NCBI GenBank assembly: GCA_017410605.1
Contig: JAFQQN010000017.1
Location: forward strand, 1-64,000
Length of the DNA stretch: 64,000 nt
Direction of reading: 5' to 3'
Source: Clostridia bacterium
GTDB taxonomy: Bacteria > Bacillota > Clostridia > Oscillospirales > Acutalibacteraceae
The stretch's first letter is position 1. Every line of letters begins with the position of its first letter. This document shows, piece after piece, positions 19,966 to 58,592 of this stretch. Below the pieces are notes generated by a model. That model was not told where the DNA came from. It made no database searches and saw only the letters and a program-made list of their open reading frames with translations. The translations under genes were made by a program, and so were the position numbers.

Positions 19966-20008
19966 AAAAACAGGCTTCTCCTTTTGGGGAGAAGCCTGTT
20001 TGTCATTT
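19966..20008. terminator. Terminator between lacZ and the BspA-like gene
   Basis: AACAGGCTTCTCC pairs with GGAGAAGCCTGTT, flanked by A-run and T-rich DNA; usable from both converging genes. Confidence 0.88.
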
Positions 20009-21957
20009 TACGGGTTTGTACAAACTCCGCTTGAATTGAAATAATAGGTTTTGTTTTTAATATAGCGTGATGTGTTATAAAGCATATATCCGTCAGCATC
20101 TATGTAATACCACTTTCCGCCGTCAAACACCCAGTTGTTCTTAACCTGACTGCCGCTTTCACCAAGATAGCACCAACCAATGCTGTCTTGCTTCCAGCAA
20201 TTTGTTACGGCATATCCGTCGGCTCCTACATAGCACCAACCCTGTGAGTCGGTACACCAAGCGTTGGTAAGCATTGCACCGTTTGAACCAAGATAAACCC
20301 AGCCTACCGAATCCTTGCGCCATTGGTTAGCCACCATATAGCCGTTTTCATCAATAAAATACCATAAACCGCCATCAAAAACCCAATTGTTTTTTACTTG
20401 ACTGCCGTTTGAACCAAGATAGCACCAACCAACAAAGTCTTTCTTCCAACAATTTGTTACGGCGTAACCGTCGGCGCCCACATAACATTTACCTTGAGAA
20501 TCCTCGCACCATGAATTAGTGAGCATCATACCTTTTTCTCCAAGATAAACCCAACCTACCGAATCCTTACGCCATGCATTTTTAACCATATTTCCGTTTT
20601 CGTAGTAGTACCAATAAATGCCATCATAATCCCAACCGGTAAAGGTTATTTCGCGAATATATCCGCAGGTGTTACAATCTATATCTGTTTCGTTGTTATA
20701 TGTGTGCAGTTCATCAGAAGAACACACATTATAATGCCAAGTGATGTTTTTCATCTCGTAATATGAATCGTCTATATCAATTCCATTTTTGTCTGCTTCA
20801 GAGCCTAAATACCATATATCTTTAAGCTTTTCGCAACACTTAAATGCAGAAGTATCGATACGTGTAACATCATTGGTTATAGTTATATTTGTAAGACCGG
20901 TGCAACCATAAAATGCAGAATTACCGATACTTGTAACACCATTGGGTATAGTTATACTTGTAAGACCAGTGCAACCTAAAAATGCATCTATACCAACTTT
21001 TGTAATGCTGCCATCTGTTGGCATCATACTGTTTTTGCAACCTGCAATAAGGGTCTTTCTTTTAGTTTCTATAAGACAATTGCCCGAGCTATGATAAACT
21101 GCATTGCCTTGCTCAACAGTTATGCTTTCGAGACAAGAACAATAGGAAAATGCAATAGCACCTATCCTTGTAACGCTGTTTGGGATTGTTATGCTTTTTA
21201 GTCCTGTGCAACCGTTAAAAGAACTGTTACCTATATTTGTAACTCTATCAGGTATGGTTATACTTGTAAGTCCTGTGCAACCGAAAAAGGCAAAATCACC
21301 TATACTTATAGCGCTTTTAGGGATTGTTATGCTTTTTAGTCCTGTGCAACCCAAAAAGGCAAAATCACCTATACTTGTAACACTGTTGTTTGTTGGTATA
21401 ACGCTGTTATCGCAACCCACGACCAGAATCTTACGCCCTGTTTCTATAAGGCAGTTACCTGAGCTATGATAAATTGCATTGCCTTGCTCAACAGTTATAC
21501 TTTCAAGCCCTGAGCAACCTCTAAATGCTTCATCACCTATACTTGTAACGCTATCAGGTATTGTTATATTTTCTAGCCCAGCACAACCTCTAAATGCTCC
21601 ATCATCTATACTTGTAACGCCGGCAGGAATTACTACGCTCTTAAGACCCGTGCAACCTTCGAAAGCATATACATTTATACTTTTAACGGTATCCGAAATT
21701 ATAATGCTTGTGATTTTGTTGCAATATCTAAATGCAGTAGCGCTTATACTTGTAACAGGATAACCACCAAGGGTAGATGGAATAGTAATATCTCCGGAAA
21801 TTGATTTATCTACATTTGTTATTGTAGCATTGCCATCAGACACTGAATATGTATAGAACCCCTCTGTTTCGGCGCTTGCTGTTAATAAGAACAATCCTGA
21901 CGGAAAAACAGAAAGGGTTAACAACAATGTTAAAACAAATGATAATAGTTTTTTCAT
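20008..21957 (-). CDS. Secreted BspA-type leucine-rich-repeat protein with cell-wall-binding repeats
   Basis: A 649-residue exported surface protein. Residues 1-29 form a Sec signal peptide ending 'LLTASAETE'. Residues about 60-400 hold tandem LRR_5 (BspA/Treponema-type) repeats with the core 'LTSITIPxxVTSIGxxAFxGC'. Two longer insertions beginning 'LESITVEQGNA' recur about 130 residues apart. Residues about 435-640 carry aromatic 20-residue repeats of the choline/glucan-binding (CW-binding) type ('WYYYENGNMV', 'GWCYLGSNGSQVKNNWV'). They repeat as a longer unit, visible in the DNA between 20100 and 20600. No LPXTG is seen, so attachment is probably through the repeats. Likely adhesion or host-glycan interaction. 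Confidence 0.9.
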   Translation of the reverse strand: MKKLLSFVLTLLLTLSVFPSGLFLLTASAETEGFYTYSVSDGNATITNVDKSISGDITIPSTLGGYPVTSISATAFRYCNKITSIIISDTVKSINVYAFEGCTGLKSVVIPAGVTSIDDGAFRGCAGLENITIPDSVTSIGDEAFRGCSGLESITVEQGNAIYHSSGNCLIETGRKILVVGCDNSVIPTNNSVTSIGDFAFLGCTGLKSITIPKSAISIGDFAFFGCTGLTSITIPDRVTNIGNSSFNGCTGLKSITIPNSVTRIGAIAFSYCSCLESITVEQGNAVYHSSGNCLIETKRKTLIAGCKNSMMPTDGSITKVGIDAFLGCTGLTSITIPNGVTSIGNSAFYGCTGLTNITITNDVTRIDTSAFKCCEKLKDIWYLGSEADKNGIDIDDSYYEMKNITWHYNVCSSDELHTYNNETDIDCNTCGYIREITFTGWDYDGIYWYYYENGNMVKNAWRKDSVGWVYLGEKGMMLTNSWCEDSQGKCYVGADGYAVTNCWKKDFVGWCYLGSNGSQVKNNWVFDGGLWYFIDENGYMVANQWRKDSVGWVYLGSNGAMLTNAWCTDSQGWCYVGADGYAVTNCWKQDSIGWCYLGESGSQVKNNWVFDGGKWYYIDADGYMLYNTSRYIKNKTYYFNSSGVCTNP

Positions 21958-22038
21958 TTCTTGTTCCTCCTAATGTAGAAAGTAAATCCACTAATCAACG
22001 GCAAATAAAAGTGAGAAGAAAGGCTTTCTCACAACTAT

Positions 22039-22067
22039 ATTTTACCAAAAAAACCGAAGCATTGCAA
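22039..22067 (-). promoter_or_regulatory. Promoter of the BspA-like gene
   Basis: On the minus strand: TTGCAA (22067-22062), 17 bases, TAAAAT (22044-22039). Confidence 0.65.
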
Positions 22068-22183
22068 TAATTAATATCTTTGGTTTGGCAAAAATATGTT
22101 TATTTGCTATAAAATCGAGCAAATTTTTGTTAAAAAGCCATAATTTAAACTAAAAAGCAAGAGTTTTTTCTAAAATATGTCAA

Positions 22184-22212
22184 TTGACTTTTATTTGTTT
22201 AATCTTTACAAT
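22184..22212 (+). promoter_or_regulatory. Promoter of the NlpC/P60-like surface protein gene
   Basis: TTGACT (22184-22189), 17 bases, TACAAT (22207-22212). Confidence 0.7.
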
Positions 22213-22253
22213 GTGTATTAGCATATTTCAAAAATCCCATTTTTGGAGGACAT

Positions 22254-23648
22254 ATGAAAGAAATTCTAAAAAAAATTACATCAGCTATAGCCACATCAGC
22301 TATGGCCGCCTTAGTTTTTGTATTAGAGCATAAAACTATTTCTGCCGTGGTTGCACTGGTTTTAACCTTGGCAATTATATTAACAAGCCTGGGGCTGACA
22401 GGCGCCTTTTCGAAAAATGAAGTTACTGTAGATGCTTCGTCTTCACAGGAAACAACTTCGGTTGTTACATCTGAGGTTTCGTCGCTTATAGAGGAGTCGT
22501 CCTCTGAGCCGACTTCAAGCCAAGAGTCTTCCTCTAGTGAGGAGGCACCGGTAACATCTAAGCCGGTTGTTACCTCAACGCCTGTTGTTACAAGCAAACC
22601 CAGTGAGCCTGTTAAGCAAAACACGGGCTTTCAGTATAACACAAATCTTGATATTGAAGATAACGTGTTTATGGACGCCCTTGTTTATACCGGCTATAAC
22701 ATAAATAAGCACCGCGCAGACGGAATGATGTGGGAATATCTTCTTGCTTCTAAGAAAAGGGCAAGGGGTTGGCTTTCTAACATTGGTTATAACGGTGGCT
22801 CTACAGGTTATGAAACTACTGCCAACGGTCTGCCCGACATAAAGGCCTTTGAGAAAAAGGGTATGGTCTGCGCCTCTTTTGTGACCTATGTTTATTTTAA
22901 CTATCTTCCCAATGTGGCAGGAATTGATACATCTTCTTTACCCAAGCCTGTTGACCCAAAACTGGCTCACGACTGGTATATGGCCGCCAACCAGTGGATA
23001 AAAAACGGTTATTCAAAATCTATTCCCTTTACCGCCACAAAAATACCTGCCGGTTCTGCAGGGTATGTTAAGTTTAATCCGTCCGAGAGTATCCCCATTG
23101 GCTCAATAGTTATTTTCCGCGATGCAAGGTACCCCAACAGCACCCACGGAAGCCACGCTTCAATTTATGCCGGTTATAAAAACGGCTACAACTGGATATA
23201 CCACGTAGGCAACGATAACGGCCCAGAATTTTGTGCAATTGAAAGGGTGCTTTTCGGCCCCGACCCGCAGTGGCCACTTGCGGTTATTACACCGCCCTCT
23301 AACATTCGTATGGCGGCTATGGCAAGTGTGACCGTAAAGGACGATAGCGGTGCCGCAGTTGAGGGTGCTGAGGTATCTGTTAAAAACAACACCACCGGCG
23401 CAGTAACCCTTTTAGGCAAGACTGATGCAAATGGATTAGTTTCTAAAGAGGGGCTAAAATACGGCGATTACACCGTTACTTATACTCTGCCAACCGGCTA
23501 TACAGCGGCTGAAACTTCGGTTACTGCAAGTCTTACCACCAAAAACAACAGCTTAAATGAAATTTTAATTTCTGTAGTAAAGGAAAGGCAAGTTTCTTCT
23601 GTTACAGAGGAAACAACAACCACAAGTACAACAGAAAGTATTCAGTAA
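22254..23648 (+). CDS. Membrane-anchored NlpC/P60-like (CHAP-like) hydrolase with Cna_B-type domain
   Basis: A 464-residue surface protein. A single membrane helix lies at about 29-50, followed by a Ser/Thr/Glu/Pro-rich stalk (about 60-125). A papain-like peptidoglycan-hydrolase domain follows, with Cys206 in 'GMVCASFVTYV' and His301 in 'GSHASIYAG', consistent with an NlpC/P60-type Cys-His pair. Residues about 355-440 form a Cna_B/SpaA-like beta-sandwich ('VTVKDDSGAAVEGAEVSVKN', 'GLKYGDYTVTYTLPTGY'), ending in a Thr-rich tail without an LPXTG. GGAGG stands before the ATG. Probably a cell-wall amidase or endopeptidase displayed on a stalk. Exact cleavage specificity is unknown. Confidence 0.8.
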   Translation: MKEILKKITSAIATSAMAALVFVLEHKTISAVVALVLTLAIILTSLGLTGAFSKNEVTVDASSSQETTSVVTSEVSSLIEESSSEPTSSQESSSSEEAPVTSKPVVTSTPVVTSKPSEPVKQNTGFQYNTNLDIEDNVFMDALVYTGYNINKHRADGMMWEYLLASKKRARGWLSNIGYNGGSTGYETTANGLPDIKAFEKKGMVCASFVTYVYFNYLPNVAGIDTSSLPKPVDPKLAHDWYMAANQWIKNGYSKSIPFTATKIPAGSAGYVKFNPSESIPIGSIVIFRDARYPNSTHGSHASIYAGYKNGYNWIYHVGNDNGPEFCAIERVLFGPDPQWPLAVITPPSNIRMAAMASVTVKDDSGAAVEGAEVSVKNNTTGAVTLLGKTDANGLVSKEGLKYGDYTVTYTLPTGYTAAETSVTASLTTKNNSLNEILISVVKERQVSSVTEETTTTSTTESIQ

Positions 23649-48826: not shown

Positions 48827-48864
48827 AATCTGCCCCGAAGTAATGCTTCGGGGCAGATTTTTTA
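48827..48864 (+). terminator. Terminator of the ABC exporter operon
   Basis: ATCTGCCCCGAAG pairs perfectly with CTTCGGGGCAGAT around TAATG, followed by TTTTTATG. Confidence 0.9.
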
Positions 48865-48901
48865 TGTAGGGGGATTATATTTTAAATTTCAATTAAAATT
48901 G

Positions 48902-48927
48902 TATTACAGGGCGGCAGACCTGTAATA
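48902..48927. promoter_or_regulatory. Perfect inverted repeat in the promoter region of the phage packaging cassette
   Basis: TATTACAGG (48902-48910), 8-base spacer, CCTGTAATA (48919-48927). It overlaps a possible promoter (TTGTAT 48899-48904 and TAATAA 48923-48928, 18-base spacing). Could be an operator for an unlinked repressor, or a terminase-recognition (pac/cos-like) site. Confidence 0.6.
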
Positions 48928-48945
48928 ATTTATGGAAGTGATAAT

Positions 48946-49227
48946 ATGGAAGAAAAAGCCGACAGCAGTAGCAAGGCAAGGGATAAAAGACCCAGAAAAA
49001 TGGGCAATAAAAAAAGAAAGGATAATTTATTACTTGCAACCGATAGCGCAATACACCGCCTAAAGTCTTTGGCACAGCCGGGTGGAGATGTGGAAAAGAT
49101 GGATATAAAGGACCTAAAAAATTTTATATCATCTATAAAAGAGCTTTCGGGAATATCGTCAGATTTGAATGATTCAACTTTGGGCGGAGTGGTAGTTTTG
49201 CCAGAGGTAAAAATAGATGAACAGTAA
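48946..49227 (+). CDS. Small basic protein upstream of the terminase (possible small-terminase-position gene)
   Basis: A 93-residue protein of unknown family: a strongly basic, charged N-terminus (about 1-27, many Lys/Arg/Ser), then a helical stretch (about 30-75). It overlaps the large-terminase gene by 11 bases, the position where phages encode the small terminase, and the basic N-terminus could contact DNA. I do not recognise the fold of any known TerS, so this is a positional guess. Codon use looks like that of its neighbours. Confidence 0.5.
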   Translation: MEEKADSSSKARDKRPRKMGNKKRKDNLLLATDSAIHRLKSLAQPGGDVEKMDIKDLKNFISSIKELSGISSDLNDSTLGGVVVLPEVKIDEQ

Positions 49228-50653
49228 AGTTTGGGTTCCGCAGAAGAAACAGCTTATGTTTATGGAACGCCCTGAATATGAGTGTTTATATGGCGGCGCT
49301 GCAGGTGGAGGAAAGAGCGATGCCTTGTTGGCTGAGGCTCTTCGCCAGGTTCATATACCTCACTATACGGCGATAATTTTTCGCAAAACCGTGCCTCAAC
49401 TAAGCGAACTTGTTGACCGAAGCCGAACTATTTATAAGGCGGCTTTCCCCGGGGCGGTGTTTAATGCTCAAGAGCATTGTTGGAGATTTCCTTCAGGCGC
49501 AAAAATCTATTTCGGTAGTATGCAATATACAAAGGATAGGTTTAACTATCAGGGCAGAAGATATGATTTTATTGCCTTTGATGAGTTAACGCATTTTACG
49601 TGGGATGAATACAGCTATCTATTTTCAAGAAACCGCCCCTCCGGCCCCGGAACAAGAGTGTATCTAAGAGCAACCACAAACCCGGGCGGGGTAGGTCATG
49701 CCTGGGTTAAGGAAAGGTTTATAACGGCCGCGCCACCAATGACACCTATAAACGAGGAATATAAGGTGGCCTCCCCTGAGGGTAAGCTTCTAACCCTAAA
49801 CAGAAAGAGAATTTTTATACCCTCTTCGGTTTTCGATAACCGAGTGTTGCTGAAAAACGACCCCGATTATCTTGCCAACCTTGCCATGCTTCCCGAGGCC
49901 GAGAAAAAGGCTTTGCTTTACGGGAATTGGGATAGCTTTGATGGTCAGGTATTCACCGAATGGCGAAATGACCCCGAGCATTATGATGATATGCGCTTTA
50001 CCCACGTTGTAGAGCCCTTTAAAATTCCGAAAACCTGGCAGATATACAGGGGCTTTGACTTTGGTTACACAAGGCCGTTTAGCGTGGGCTGGTATGCCGC
50101 CGACTGTGACGGAAGACTTTATAGATTCAGAGAATACTACGGGTGCGACGGTGTTCCTAATAACGGACTTAGATTAGAACCTGCTCAGATTGCTCAGGGT
50201 ATAAAAGAAATAGAAGAGCAAGACCCCAACATAAGGGGGCGTACAGTTATAGGCATAGCCGACCCCTCAATTTTTGACGGCTCAAGAGGGCGAAGCGTGG
50301 CAGAGGTAATGGAAAAAAGCGGTGTATATTTCCGTCCGGGGGACAATGCTAGAATACCTGGAAAAATGCAGTTTCATTATCGCTTTGCCTTTGATAGCGA
50401 GGGAGTTCCAATGCTTTATATATTTAAAGGCTGTAAAAATTTTATAAGAACTATACCATCACTCAATTATTCTCAGTCTAATGTTGAAGATATTGACACC
50501 TCGGCCGAGGACCACATTTATGATGAATGCAGATATGTGTTAATGCATATTCCAATAAAAGCGCGGCGCAATCAATTGCAAAGTGGCAAAAATTCAAGCG
50601 AAATATTTTCGCCACTAGAAACAGGCCGCAAGGTAGAATTTTTGAGAATATAA
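49217..50653 (+). CDS. Phage terminase large subunit
   Basis: A 478-residue, seemingly complete TerL: the ATP-driven motor and nuclease that packages phage DNA. ATPase: Walker A 'GGAAGGGKS' (residues 26-34), Walker B 'FIAFDEL' near 121, coupling motif 'ATTNPGG' near 152. The RNase-H-like nuclease shows acidic residues in 'FDFGY' near 281, 'GIADPS' near 351 and 'DHIYDECRY' near 434. No frameshift or stop is present. It lies between a small ORF and a portal gene, with no capsid, tail, lysis or integrase genes nearby, which is unusual. Confidence 0.93.
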   Translation: MNSKVWVPQKKQLMFMERPEYECLYGGAAGGGKSDALLAEALRQVHIPHYTAIIFRKTVPQLSELVDRSRTIYKAAFPGAVFNAQEHCWRFPSGAKIYFGSMQYTKDRFNYQGRRYDFIAFDELTHFTWDEYSYLFSRNRPSGPGTRVYLRATTNPGGVGHAWVKERFITAAPPMTPINEEYKVASPEGKLLTLNRKRIFIPSSVFDNRVLLKNDPDYLANLAMLPEAEKKALLYGNWDSFDGQVFTEWRNDPEHYDDMRFTHVVEPFKIPKTWQIYRGFDFGYTRPFSVGWYAADCDGRLYRFREYYGCDGVPNNGLRLEPAQIAQGIKEIEEQDPNIRGRTVIGIADPSIFDGSRGRSVAEVMEKSGVYFRPGDNARIPGKMQFHYRFAFDSEGVPMLYIFKGCKNFIRTIPSLNYSQSNVEDIDTSAEDHIYDECRYVLMHIPIKARRNQLQSGKNSSEIFSPLETGRKVEFLRI

Positions 50654-50670
50654 CTGAAAGGAAAATTTAT

Positions 50671-52242
50671 ATGAAGAAACGTTTAATAAAAATTGGTGAA
50701 GAGCAAATAAAAAAGGCTTATTCTACGCTTGTAAAATACAAGGAGGGGAAGAGTGAGCTTGAAAGAAGGATTATAGAAAATGAAGAGTGGTTTAAGCTTC
50801 GCTGCTGCGGTGAAAAATCCTCTGAGGAGGAAATAAAGCAAAGTTCGGGTTGGCTTTTTAATTCAATAATAAATAAACATGCTGATGCAATGGACAGCTT
50901 TCCGGAGCCTAATGTTTTACCAAGAGAGGAAAACGACAAAGAACAGGCCGCCACCCTTTCTGCAATTCTTCCTGTAGTGCTTGACCAGTGTGGTTTTGAG
51001 CAAACATATTCTGATGTTTGGTGGTACAAGCTAAAAACAGGAACTGGTGTTTACGGTGTGTTTTGGAACAGCGCCTTACAGGGTGGCTTGGGTGATGTTG
51101 ATATTAAGCAAATAGATATTTTAAATTTATTTTGGCAACCCGGTATAAAAAATATAGAGCAGTCGGAAAATATTTTTTATGTTCAGGCGGTGGAAAAAGA
51201 AAAACTATGCAGTATTTATAAATTAGATGCCGAAAGTCTTAAAACGGCCAACCCCCTTTTAGAGGCCTATCGCCTTTCAGACGGGGTTTATGAAGATAAT
51301 AAGGCCTTGGTGGTTGATTGGTATTATAAAAAGAATATTGATGGCTACGAGGTGCTTCATTACTGTAAGTTTGTAGGCGATAGGGTGTTGTTTGCCTCAG
51401 AGAACGAGGAATGTTATGCAAGGCGCGGCTTTTACGACCACGGAAAATATCCCTTTATATTTGATACAATGTTTGTAACAGAGGGAAGCCCGGCAGGGTT
51501 TGGGTATATAGATGTTATGAAAGGCTGTCAGCGTTCTATTGACCGTTTAGACAGTGCAATTTTAAGAAATACTCTTATAGGCGAAACACCCCGTTGGTTT
51601 ATAAGCGATGCCGCCGGCATAAATGAAGAAGAATATGCAGATTGGTCCAGCCCCTTTATTCACACAACCGGCCGTATAGACGACCAGACTTTAAAACAGG
51701 TTAAGGTTGAAGGGGTAAATTCTGCCGCGCTACAGCTTTTGCAATATAAGGTTGAGGAGCTTAAAGAGATATCGGGAAATAGAGATTTTACCCAGGGTGG
51801 CACAAAATACGGTGTTACTGCGGCCTCGGCTATTCTGGCTTTGCAAGAGGCCGGGGGGAAGCTTTCAAGAGATATGATAAAGGCCTCTTTTAGGGCATAT
51901 AGCCAAATTTGTTATCTTTGTGTTGAGCTAATAAGACAGTTTTATACCGAGCCCAGAAGCTTTAGAATTCTTTCTAAAGAAAAGGGGACAGGCTTTGTAA
52001 CCTATAATAACCAAAATATTATAGGTAAAACAGATGGAATTTTAAACTTAGTAAGAAAGCCGATTTTTGATATAAAAATTGTACCCCAAAAACAAAATCC
52101 TTATCAAAAGGCGCAGCAAAATGAACTTGCTAAAGAGCTTTTCAACCTTGGAATGTTATCGCCCGACAGAAGAGAAGAGGCTCGTATGGCCATTAAAATG
52201 ATGGATTTTGAGGGCAAGGAAGAAATTTTAGCACAGCTGTAG
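50671..52242 (+). CDS. Phage portal-like protein
   Basis: A 523-residue protein directly downstream of TerL, with length and features of a P22/SPP1-type portal: a charged N-terminal region, the middle 'DVWWYKLKTGTGVYGVFW' and 'GFGYIDVMKGCQRSIDRLDSAILRN' segments typical of dodecameric portal stems, and a C-terminal helical region. It forms the ring through which TerL would pump DNA. The start is ATG 50671 behind AAAGGAA; a longer in-frame reading from 50527 lies inside terL. No capsid genes follow; a terminator does. Confidence 0.82.
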   Translation: MKKRLIKIGEEQIKKAYSTLVKYKEGKSELERRIIENEEWFKLRCCGEKSSEEEIKQSSGWLFNSIINKHADAMDSFPEPNVLPREENDKEQAATLSAILPVVLDQCGFEQTYSDVWWYKLKTGTGVYGVFWNSALQGGLGDVDIKQIDILNLFWQPGIKNIEQSENIFYVQAVEKEKLCSIYKLDAESLKTANPLLEAYRLSDGVYEDNKALVVDWYYKKNIDGYEVLHYCKFVGDRVLFASENEECYARRGFYDHGKYPFIFDTMFVTEGSPAGFGYIDVMKGCQRSIDRLDSAILRNTLIGETPRWFISDAAGINEEEYADWSSPFIHTTGRIDDQTLKQVKVEGVNSAALQLLQYKVEELKEISGNRDFTQGGTKYGVTAASAILALQEAGGKLSRDMIKASFRAYSQICYLCVELIRQFYTEPRSFRILSKEKGTGFVTYNNQNIIGKTDGILNLVRKPIFDIKIVPQKQNPYQKAQQNELAKELFNLGMLSPDRREEARMAIKMMDFEGKEEILAQL

Positions 52243-52288: not shown

Positions 52289-52338
52289 AAACACCCCATA
52301 ATAGCTTTTGATATTTGCCAAAGCTATTGTGGGGCGTT
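52289..52338. terminator. Terminator between the portal gene and the ATP synthase operon
   Basis: AAACACCCCATAATAGCTTT pairs with AAGCTATTGTGGGGCGTTT around a 12-base loop, then TTGTTTAT; usable from both converging units. Confidence 0.85.
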
Positions 52339-52362
52339 TTGTTTATAAATTAACTTTTTAAA

Positions 52363-52626
52363 TTAATCCTCCCATTTGAAGCCAGAGGATAAAAGGGTTA
52401 CACTTTCTTTCGAAACGGTAAGAAGACCGCCCTCAAGCTGTGCCAGTCGCTCACTGTCATCGGGGAAAATGATTTTACACTTTCCCGGCACTACAGAGGT
52501 TAAAAATGGTGTATGACCGGCCATAATGGCTAAATCGCCCTCTGTTCCTCTAAGGGATAAAAAGGCCGCATCACCTTTAAAAATATCACCGTCAGGGGAG
52601 GAAATAATAAGAGAAAAGGTGTTCAT
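52363..52626 (-). CDS. atpC: ATP synthase epsilon subunit, short form
   Basis: Only 87 residues, covering the N-terminal beta-sandwich of epsilon ('FSLIISSPDGDIFKGDAAFLSL', 'GDLAIMAGHTPFLTSV', 'LEGGLLTVSKESVTLLS'). The C-terminal two-helix domain (about 45-50 residues in the usual 130-140-residue protein) is absent; a clean stop follows and no second fragment is seen downstream. In most F1 complexes that domain inhibits ATP hydrolysis. Last gene of the atp operon, 2 bases after atpD. Confidence 0.9.
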   Translation of the reverse strand: MNTFSLIISSPDGDIFKGDAAFLSLRGTEGDLAIMAGHTPFLTSVVPGKCKIIFPDDSERLAQLEGGLLTVSKESVTLLSSGFKWED

Positions 52627-52628
52627 AA

Positions 52629-54846
<2,218 letters not shown>

Positions 54847-54851
54847 TTATA

Positions 54852-56345
54852 TCACCCCTGAAAAGCCGTTAAAGCAGATTTAAGCTTTTCAATATCCTCA
54901 GGCTCAAAATATCCGCTTTCAAAACGAACAAGCAGTTCTTCTTCACGGTTTTCCAAATATTCAAAAAGATTTTTTTCATATTCCTTAACCTGGCTCACCG
55001 CAATACTGTCAAGGTAGCCGTTTATAACGGCATAAACAATGGCAACCTGAAGACCTACTCTTACAGGGCTGTTGCGGTCTTGCTTAAGCACCTCAACAAT
55101 TCTTTCCCCAAGAGCCAGTCTTTCCTTAGTGTCGGCATCTAAATCACTGCCAAACTGCGCAAAGGACTTAAGCTCTCTGTACTGAGAATATAATAGCTTA
55201 AGTTCACCCGAAACCTTTTTCATAGCCTTAAGCTGCGCCGAGCCACCAACACGGCTAACCGAAATACCGGGGTTTATAGCAGGTCTTATACCGGAATGGA
55301 AAAGCTCTGTTTCTAAAAAAATCTGTCCGTCGGTAATAGAAATAACATTGGTGGGAATATAGGCAGAAACATCACCTGCCTGTGTTTCAATAATGGGAAG
55401 AGCGGTAATTGAGCCACCGCCGTACTGGGGCGCAACACAAGCGGCTCTTTCCAAAAGTCGTGAGTGAAGATAGAAAACATCGCCGGGGTAGGCCTCTCTT
55501 CCAGGTGGACGGCGAATAAGCAGAGAAAGTGCGCGGTATGCTACGGCGTGTTTGCTTAAATCGTCATAAACTATTAAAACGTCCTTGCCTTGTTCCCTAA
55601 AATGCTCTGCCATTGCACAGCCAGAGTAGGGGGCAATATATTGTAACGGGGCGCTCTCTGAGGCTGAAGCCGAAACAACTATTGTATATTCCATAGCACC
55701 GGCCTTTTCAAGGTCGTTTGTAAGCTGAACCACCGAGGTGTTTTTTTGACCAATAGCAACATAGATGCAAATAACATCCTTGCCCTTTTGGTTTATAATG
55801 GTATCGGTAGCAATAACGGTTTTTCCTGTCTGGCGGTCGCCTATAATAAGCTCACGCTGACCGCGGCCTATAGGAATCATACTGTCAATAGACTTAATAC
55901 CTGTTTGAAGAGGCCTTGAAACGCTTTCGCGCTCTATTATTCCGGGGGCTTCGGCCTCAATTGGCCTTGCACCCGAATATTCTATAGGTCCTTTACCGTC
56001 AATAGGCTCACCCAAGGCGTTGACAACTCGGCCAAGAAGTGCATCTCCTACAGGAACCGAAACAACCTTTCCTGTACGGTGAACCGAGGAGCCTTCTTTA
56101 ATGTTGTTGCGGTCTGAAAGCAAGGCGACCGAAACGGTATCCTCTTCAAGGTTTTGCGCCATACCAAAGCTGCCGTCATCAAACTCTAAAAGCTCACTGG
56201 ACATACAGTTTGTAAGGCCGTATACTCTGGCTATTCCGTCACCTACAAGAATAACAGTTCCTGTTTCTTTCATTTCGGTGTGTGAACGGTAGTTTTTAAT
56301 TTGTTCTTTTATAATGAAACTAATTTCTTCAGGTTTAGTGCTCAC
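54852..56345 (-). CDS. atpA: ATP synthase F1 alpha subunit
   Basis: The non-catalytic nucleotide-binding subunit, 497 residues. P-loop 'GDRQTGKT' near 169-176, the signature '[17 protein letters not shown]' near 360, and '[20 protein letters not shown]' are clear. It alternates with beta in the hexamer. It overlaps atpH by 4 bases (ATGA-type junction) and ends 5 bases before atpG. Confidence 0.97.
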
Positions 56346-56881
56346 TTTATTATCACTTCCTTAATACTGCGCATTTGACCGAGTAAGCTTCCGTCAATTA
56401 TTTTACCGTCAATTTTTACAACAAGTCCACCTATAAGCTGTGGTTCAATTTTAAAGCTCATTGAAACCTTTTTGCCGCTTATGGCCTCAAGCTTATTTAA
56501 AAGACGGGATTTTTGTTTATCACTTAGCTCTACGGCACTTATAATTTGGGCTGTGGTAGCCTTGCGGTGGTGTAGAACAAGGCTAAAAAAATCTTCAATA
56601 CAGTCTTCTAAAATTGCAATTTTATCTTGGTGAGATAAAAGGCTTAAAAAAGAAAGCAGATGTTCACAAACTGCGTCGCCAAAGGCATTTTTCAGAAGAC
56701 CTTCTTTTTCCGCTTTAGTAATGTTAGGGGAAGAAAGCAAAAGCTTATAATCGGGGTTTTCGCTAAACACAGTCTTAATTAGGTTTAGCTGTTTTTCAAA
56801 AAGGTCTACGGTATTTTCTTCAAGGGCTATCATAAACAGAGCCGAAGAAAACTCTCTGCAAACATTATTCATCGCCGTCAC
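56342..56881 (-). CDS. atpH: ATP synthase delta subunit
   Basis: Delta (OSCP-like), 179 residues, binding the top of F1 to the peripheral stalk. Helical N-terminal domain with '[22 protein letters not shown]' and C-terminal '[29 protein letters not shown]' are the family hallmarks. It overlaps both atpF (17 bases) and atpA (4 bases), so translation is tightly coupled. Confidence 0.94.
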
Positions 56882-57371
56882 CTAAACCGTCTATAAACGA
56901 GTCAATAAAGCCTTGGTGGTCTTCACGGCTCAGCTCTCGTTTTATAAGCTTCTCGGCCAGTTCGGAAGAAACCTCAACAAGCTCTTTCTTTATCTCGGCA
57001 TGGGCATTTTTTATTTCAAGCTTTGCGGCCTCTTCTGCACGGCGCACAATACCCTCTGCCTTGGTTTTAGCATCTGAAATTATACGATCGCCCCTAAGCT
57101 GCGCGGTAGAAGCAGCATTAGCAATCATATCGTCTGCGGTTTTTTTGGCCGTAGACATTTTTTCTTCCCAACGCAGTTTTTCGTTTAAGGCGCCCTGCTC
57201 GGCTTGCCTGGCATTTTCATAGTTTTTATCAATTTCTGCCTGTCTTTGGGCAAGAACCTTTTTTACCGGTTTATATAAAAACCTTTTAATTATAAGAAAA
57301 AGCAAAACCAAATTGGCAAGGGAAATAACTATGTGCCAAATATTAACCGATATAATATCTAGGGTTTGCAT
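56865..57371 (-). CDS. atpF: ATP synthase F0 b subunit
   Basis: The peripheral-stalk b subunit, 168 residues: one N-terminal membrane helix (about 12-30), then a long charged coiled coil ('KKVLAQRQAEIDKNYENARQAEQGAL') to the end. I choose ATG 57371 with GGAG 8 bases upstream; a GTG three codons earlier sits directly against that ribosome site. It overlaps atpH by 17 bases. Confidence 0.93.
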   Translation of the reverse strand: MQTLDIISVNIWHIVISLANLVLLFLIIKRFLYKPVKKVLAQRQAEIDKNYENARQAEQGALNEKLRWEEKMSTAKKTADDMIANAASTAQLRGDRIISDAKTKAEGIVRRAEEAAKLEIKNAHAEIKKELVEVSSELAEKLIKRELSREDHQGFIDSFIDGLGDGDE

Positions 57372-57396
57372 ATTATTCACTCCAAAATTTACGGTC

Positions 57397-58592
<1,196 letters not shown>

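Follow-up and report, generated by a model that had tools for sequence, protein, structure and literature searches.

Why would a bacterial chromosome keep a set of phage DNA-packaging genes with open reading frames among its housekeeping genes? Such a set, consisting of a small terminase subunit (TerS), a large terminase subunit (TerL), and a portal protein, is present within the window analysed here, 64,000 nt of DNA corresponding to bases 1-64000 of contig C17 (154,974 bp) in the 1.72-Mb draft genome G000. The original prediction held that no capsid gene lies nearby and proposed a domesticated packaging motor, a satellite or gene transfer agent (GTA) component that uses capsids encoded elsewhere, or a defence/interference decoy. 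In the reading that we consider likely, these three genes form the packaging operon of a short-tailed phage that has been domesticated and whose late genes are now spread over several operons under one promoter element. The bacterium probably makes GTA-like particles rather than carrying phage junk.

The packaging cassette and its surroundings

The three adjacent ORFs, of 93, 478, and 523 amino acids (aa), are present and open as predicted, and all are on the forward strand. They encode a truncated TerS (48946..49227), which was assigned by profile comparison and is conserved in five congeners; TerL, with its ATPase and nuclease (49217..50653); and a P22-type portal protein (50671..52242), for which the mechanical ORF begins further upstream, at 50527. 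The predicted bracketing by housekeeping genes and terminators is also seen. To the left lies an ABC exporter pair, followed by a strong intrinsic terminator (48827..48865, forward strand), which was called by the terminator scanner and has a 15-bp stem with 8 GC pairs and a T tail. Directly 3' of this terminator lies a promoter-like element, GTAGGGGGATT-N17-TAAAAT (48866..48899, forward strand). On the right is the F-ATPase operon, which runs in the opposite orientation. Between the portal gene and atpC there is a probable terminator (52291..52345, unstranded), visible as an inverted repeat and T-run that were read by eye; this repeat is not among the calls of the scanner.

No further phage gene adjoins the cassette in the window and no tRNA is found near it, and no integrase lies in or beside it in either the window or the congeners. 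The cassette itself contains neither a replication gene nor a repressor, and its G+C content of 42% is the same as that of its surroundings. The F-type ATPase operon (window 52363-58592) is found in only three of the eight genomes of the genus, the others having V-type-like ATPase matches only, and the ABC exporter has different right neighbours across the congeners. Consequently, an empty-site comparison between the exporter and atpC is uninformative.

TerL, portal, and a truncated TerS

TerL matches Terminase_6N (PF03237) and phrog_979. As predicted, it is complete: the Walker A lysine (K33), the Walker B residues (D122/E123), and the nuclease aspartates (D281, D349, and D436) are all intact and occupy columns that are at least 97% conserved among 166 homologues. 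An alternative assignment to PF03354 was rejected, since that family has no match in G000. In a tree of the 166 sequences, the seven rows of the genus group form one clade (support 99), and the Faecalibacterium rows form a separate supported group. The portal protein is likewise full-length and matches P22_portal (PF16510, 2.4e-29) and phrog_156 (7.9e-77). PDB sequence searches with TerL and the portal returned nothing at E 0.001.

The 93-aa ORF has no family match by hmmscan. However, the earlier suggestion that it might be a small terminase is borne out by profile comparison, which aligns it with the C-terminal part of the full-length TerS of related phages (hhalign 95.6%, E 1.3e-8) and with the TerS of Faecalibacterium (hhalign 93.6%, E 2.1e-7), which is of the type found in FpGTA, a GTA-like element of that genus (Nat Commun, January 2026; PMC12946183). 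The N-terminal helix-turn-helix of phage TerS is absent both in the six species that carry the cassette and in the Faecalibacterium proteins. The ORF is a TerS that, judged from its sequence, retains the C-terminal part and lacks the DNA-recognition part; it would thus have lost the ability to recognize DNA.

The cassette in related genomes

The genus set comprises eight genomes, G000 included, all of which are draft MAGs; TerL and portal are present in six. Compared with G000, the proteins of the five other carriers are 76-79% (TerL) and 66-70% (portal) identical. In these five the cassette is about 4.5 kb long, with housekeeping genes on both sides, and TerS, TerL, and portal are followed by an XhlA-like membrane/coiled-coil protein (phrog_1863), an r1t holin (PF16945), and an Amidase_3 endolysin. 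The window cassette contains only the first three of these six genes, and a search of the G000 genome yields no r1t holin and no close endolysin. An amidase match on contig C14 of G000, considered as the missing lysis gene, is a host gene near radA.

The insertion sites mostly differ between species, although two congeners share the same left neighbour, a TauE-like gene. In none of the congeners does a prophage lie beside the cassette, an arrangement that would have spoken against the original prediction. A separate observation concerns G092, a congener without TerL or capsid. At about 20000-22650 of its contig C21 (L228 10027-12623), a 444-aa protein, an SPP1 holin, and an endolysin that is 66-74% identical to the cassette endolysin are flanked by host genes.

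A separate head-tail operon

When phrog_1357, the capsid family of contiguous relatives, was used as the query, exactly one capsid gene was found in each of the six TerL-bearing genomes, always at a locus separate from the cassette, and none in the two congeners that lack TerL. In G000 this gene is at C11:106763-107968. Thus, the claim that there is no capsid nearby holds for the neighbourhood of the cassette but not for the genome as a whole, where the matching major capsid gene that had been proposed as a search target does exist.

The capsid gene is part of a head-tail operon that recurs in all six carriers, in line with the distant capsid/tail cluster that had been envisaged for relatives. 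This operon encodes a scaffold, the major capsid protein (MCP), a small head protein of ~115 aa, a fibre-like protein of ~350 aa, an adaptor-like protein of ~122 aa, and a nozzle of ~620 aa, and it adjoins mntP in at least four genomes (G000, G100, G102, and G103). A nozzle homologue from a contiguous phage was modelled with a mean pLDDT of 76; the structures it matches best are podovirus nozzles, P22 gp10 and T7 gp12 among them. The gene for the ~350-aa fibre-like protein is absent in G102 and G103. In G102 the nozzle gene is also absent at the head-operon locus and the capsid is unusually divergent, and the set may therefore be damaged, or arranged differently, in at least one species. A search of the genus with the A1 profile, which represents an ejection-type protein conserved in related phages and in Faecalibacterium loci, found no match, a weak negative obtained without a positive control. 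In G000, a MuF-barnase remnant lies beside the head operon (C11; L243 13938-14126).

A promoter-like element shared by the operons

The element consists of G[T/G]GGGG[G/A]GAA[A/G], exactly 17 bases, and then TANNNT (mostly TATAAT or TATACT). With this exact N17 spacing it is present upstream of all six head operons and five of the six packaging operons. The exception is the window operon, whose GTAGGGGGATT-N17-TAAAAT is a degenerate copy of GTGGGGGGAAA-N17-TATAAT. Even so, this copy is the single match to GTRGGGGGAWW-N17-TANNNT in the 64 kb, and 100 shuffles gave none. A scan across the genus returned 16 exact matches, 11 of them at the starts of packaging or head operons. When one mismatch is allowed, the total is similar to that of a reversed-pattern control, and single one-mismatch sites therefore rest on their context. 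A strict form, defined after the sites had been seen, gives 24 listed sites, against about 0.5 expected from base composition; 23 of them precede phage-type genes.

In the contiguous phage L025/L102 the same element immediately precedes TerS, and in L150 and L171 it is close to that gene; it is thus probably the ancestral late promoter. The upstream regions of the scanned Faecalibacterium TerL loci show no copy, and the element is therefore not used as a family-wide marker.

Other genes lie behind copies of the element. At C2:73033 of G000, a one-mismatch copy stands 28 bp before genes for an XhlA-like protein, a 63-aa holin (phrog_297), and an M15 endolysin with choline-binding repeats; this operon supplies the lysis functions absent from the window cassette. 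In G000 (C4), G100, and G104, the element is located ~30-45 bp before the gene for a protein of 527-607 aa. This candidate fibre or receptor-binding protein diverges fast (23-42% identity), and its G100 copy matches a virion structural family. In G100, G102, and G104 the element is followed by the gene for a truncated DnaD-like phage protein, a candidate regulator or relic.

Several further sites are recorded here as observations. The DnaD-like helicase-loader protein (~166 aa) is encoded at G100:C67, G102:C11, and G104:C38 and C22 (L336, L343, L339, and L338, respectively), in three cases beside a hydF-like gene, and is interrupted in G100. A short MuF C-terminal domain fused to barnase and followed by barstar, with the shared element directly upstream, occurs at about 55200-57300 of G000:C4 (L331), where one copy has stop codons, and at G100:C16 (L333); the fusion is possibly a toxin cargo of the particles. 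A serine recombinase (Resolvase, 83% identical) lies behind a similar promoter-like element at G100:C34 and G102:C40 (L335 and L328). Finally, an exact copy at G104:C9:25270 (L344) has no gene recognised downstream.

Selection and descent

The original prediction reasoned that the frames are intact and may be kept by selection, and that frameshifts or neutral evolution in TerL and portal across relatives would refute it. Neither is seen. The frames are open, and the pairwise NG86 dN/dS medians, which are approximate because dS is near or above saturation (about 1 or more), are 0.056 for TerL, 0.110 for portal, and 0.102 for MCP (that is, 0.06-0.11), with 0.088 for the amidase endolysin and 0.149 for TerS. 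For comparison, the corresponding values for host genes are 0.061-0.073 (ABC genes) and 0.149 (mntP). The scaffold, adaptor, and nozzle genes evolve faster (0.22-0.30).

Across ten genome pairs, identity follows that of the host gene mntP closely for portal (r 0.98), TerL (0.95), and TerS (0.94) and poorly for MCP (0.59), and the two congeners that lack the system are the more distant ones by the ABC exporter, too. These patterns fit a single acquisition and later descent together with the host, in a small sample of six related genomes. They indicate long-term vertical maintenance under purifying selection, with MCP tracking the host less well.

A candidate gene transfer agent and its alternatives

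Dispersed phage-derived particle genes with housekeeping flanks, and without an integrase or replication module, are thus present as packaging, head-tail, lysis, and fibre-like operons. In G000 the proposed set would comprise the packaging operon (window 48866-52242), the head-tail operon (C11), the lysis operon (C2), and the fibre-like gene (C4). Firing of the common promoters would lead to assembly of a small capsid, which the portal and TerL would then fill with DNA; holin and endolysin would release the particle. Because the DNA-recognition domain of TerS appears to have been lost, packaging would no longer begin at a phage pac site, and random loading of host DNA is expected; such a particle should act as a GTA. 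Co-transcription of the operons, particle formation, random packaging, and transfer of host DNA to recipients are what we infer from this gene content. Of the options raised originally, the domesticated motor or GTA component using capsids encoded elsewhere is the one that agrees with what was found: all six carriers have a capsid operon in trans, the genes are under purifying selection, TerS is truncated, and the operons share a promoter element. No sign of a defence decoy emerged from these analyses.

PBSX of Bacillus subtilis is a chromosomal phage-derived particle that packages host DNA (PMC12946183); unlike the dispersed system here, it is encoded at a contiguous locus, and it forms a tailed killer particle. 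A comparable particle here, one that packages host DNA without transferring it and kills relatives, possibly via the MuF-barnase toxins, is a minor but reasonable alternative. Four to five copies of the element stand directly before MuF-barnase/barstar or similar toxin-like cassettes (G000, G100, and G104), transfer by FpGTA is also unproven, and the authors of that work themselves raise the PBSX comparison (PMC12946183). However, no long-tail or contractile-tail genes were seen here, and the nozzle and fibre-like genes suit DNA delivery. Furthermore, the MuF cassettes occur in some genomes only, whereas packaging and head genes occur in all carriers. An extension of the GTA reading, which we hold only tentatively, would describe the system as a regulon in which copies of the ancestral late promoter drive at least four dispersed operons and also the MuF-barnase/barstar cassettes, and in which particles deliver both random host DNA and toxin. 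If so, the toxin would hit relatives that lack the immunity gene.

That these genes are relics of a decaying prophage whose frames have stayed open by chance is improbable. The window cassette does have three genes rather than the six of its congeners, and G102 lacks some head-operon genes; yet six species at or near synonymous saturation have open frames with dN/dS near host-gene values, the lysis genes absent from the cassette exist elsewhere behind the shared element, and every carrier shows the same arrangement into separate operons. A phage satellite that has its own packaging genes and borrows the capsid of a helper, an option also raised originally, would account for packaging genes without an adjacent capsid and for cassette sites that differ between species, but is very improbable and was dropped, as the capsid is encoded elsewhere in the same genome and co-occurs with the cassette, the divergence of the cassette follows that of a host gene, and the cassette lacks the integrase expected of a PICI or cf-PICI as well as any replication gene or repressor.

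Relationship to known systems

To our knowledge, GTAs outside the Alphaproteobacteria are barely known. Those within that class, RcGTA and its relatives, are encoded by several dispersed chromosomal clusters that are inherited vertically and kept by selection, and have a TerS without DNA recognition (literature cited in PMC12946183). The system described here resembles them in these respects, with a TerS predicted to lack DNA recognition. It differs in ancestry, which is tailed in RcGTA and marked here by a P22-type portal with a nozzle, in the separation of packaging from capsid genes, and in the phylum of the host.

The first GTA in gut Clostridia, FpGTA, was described in 2026 (PMC12946183). 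Its 10.5-kb operon contains TerS, TerL, portal, scaffold, MCP, and other genes, with a TerS that has no obvious DNA-binding domain; a second, 5.5-kb operon carries fibre, receptor-binding, and lysis genes; and its 40-nm, tail-less-looking particles hold about 9 kb of DNA (PMC12946183). Several of the Faecalibacterium loci found here probably correspond to FpGTA: their strains or species are named in that work, and their genes follow the order given there. The present system, known from its genes alone, shares with FpGTA a homologous TerL (about 64-70% identical), portal, scaffold, MCP family, and nozzle, a TerS without the helix-turn-helix, the lack of replication and integrase genes, the use of more than one operon, and a short-tailed type. 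Here the lysis genes are 3' of portal in five species and in their own operon in G000, and fibre-like genes are at other loci. In contrast to FpGTA I, which has TerS, TerL, portal, and capsid in one operon, the capsid locus is separate in all six carriers. In addition, TerL belongs to its own clade, apart from the Faecalibacterium set; no counterpart of the ejection-type gene of the Faecalibacterium loci turned up in the genus; and the GTRGGGGGAAA-N17 promoter was not seen upstream of the scanned Faecalibacterium TerL loci. The best reading is that the system is related to, and not identical with, FpGTA.

If this is correct, GTAs extend to another genus of gut Clostridia and to a further stage of domestication, in which packaging is separated from the capsid. 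Scattered GTA parts of this kind may escape prophage callers, and the combination of a shared late promoter and a TerS without helix-turn-helix provides a signature for finding them in draft genomes. The system also opens to testing the question of how the genes of a fragmented phage remain coordinated once its operon has been dispersed.

The contiguous phages (L025/L102 and L079) have homologous TerL, portal, scaffold, MCP, adaptor, and nozzle. Unlike the system described here, they keep these genes in one contiguous late region; L025 has a full-length TerS with the helix-turn-helix, and L079 has an integrase nearby. Genomes of other genera in the family mostly have TerL and capsid on one contig, a few kb apart. 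One genome from another genus, G065, has a scaffold-MCP-adaptor operon directly after host genes (C5; L287 3688-6105), and the split between packaging and capsid may therefore predate the genus. The TerS of G065 keeps the helix-turn-helix, and its scaffold-MCP operon is preceded by a weaker promoter element, GGGGAGA-N19-TATGCT.
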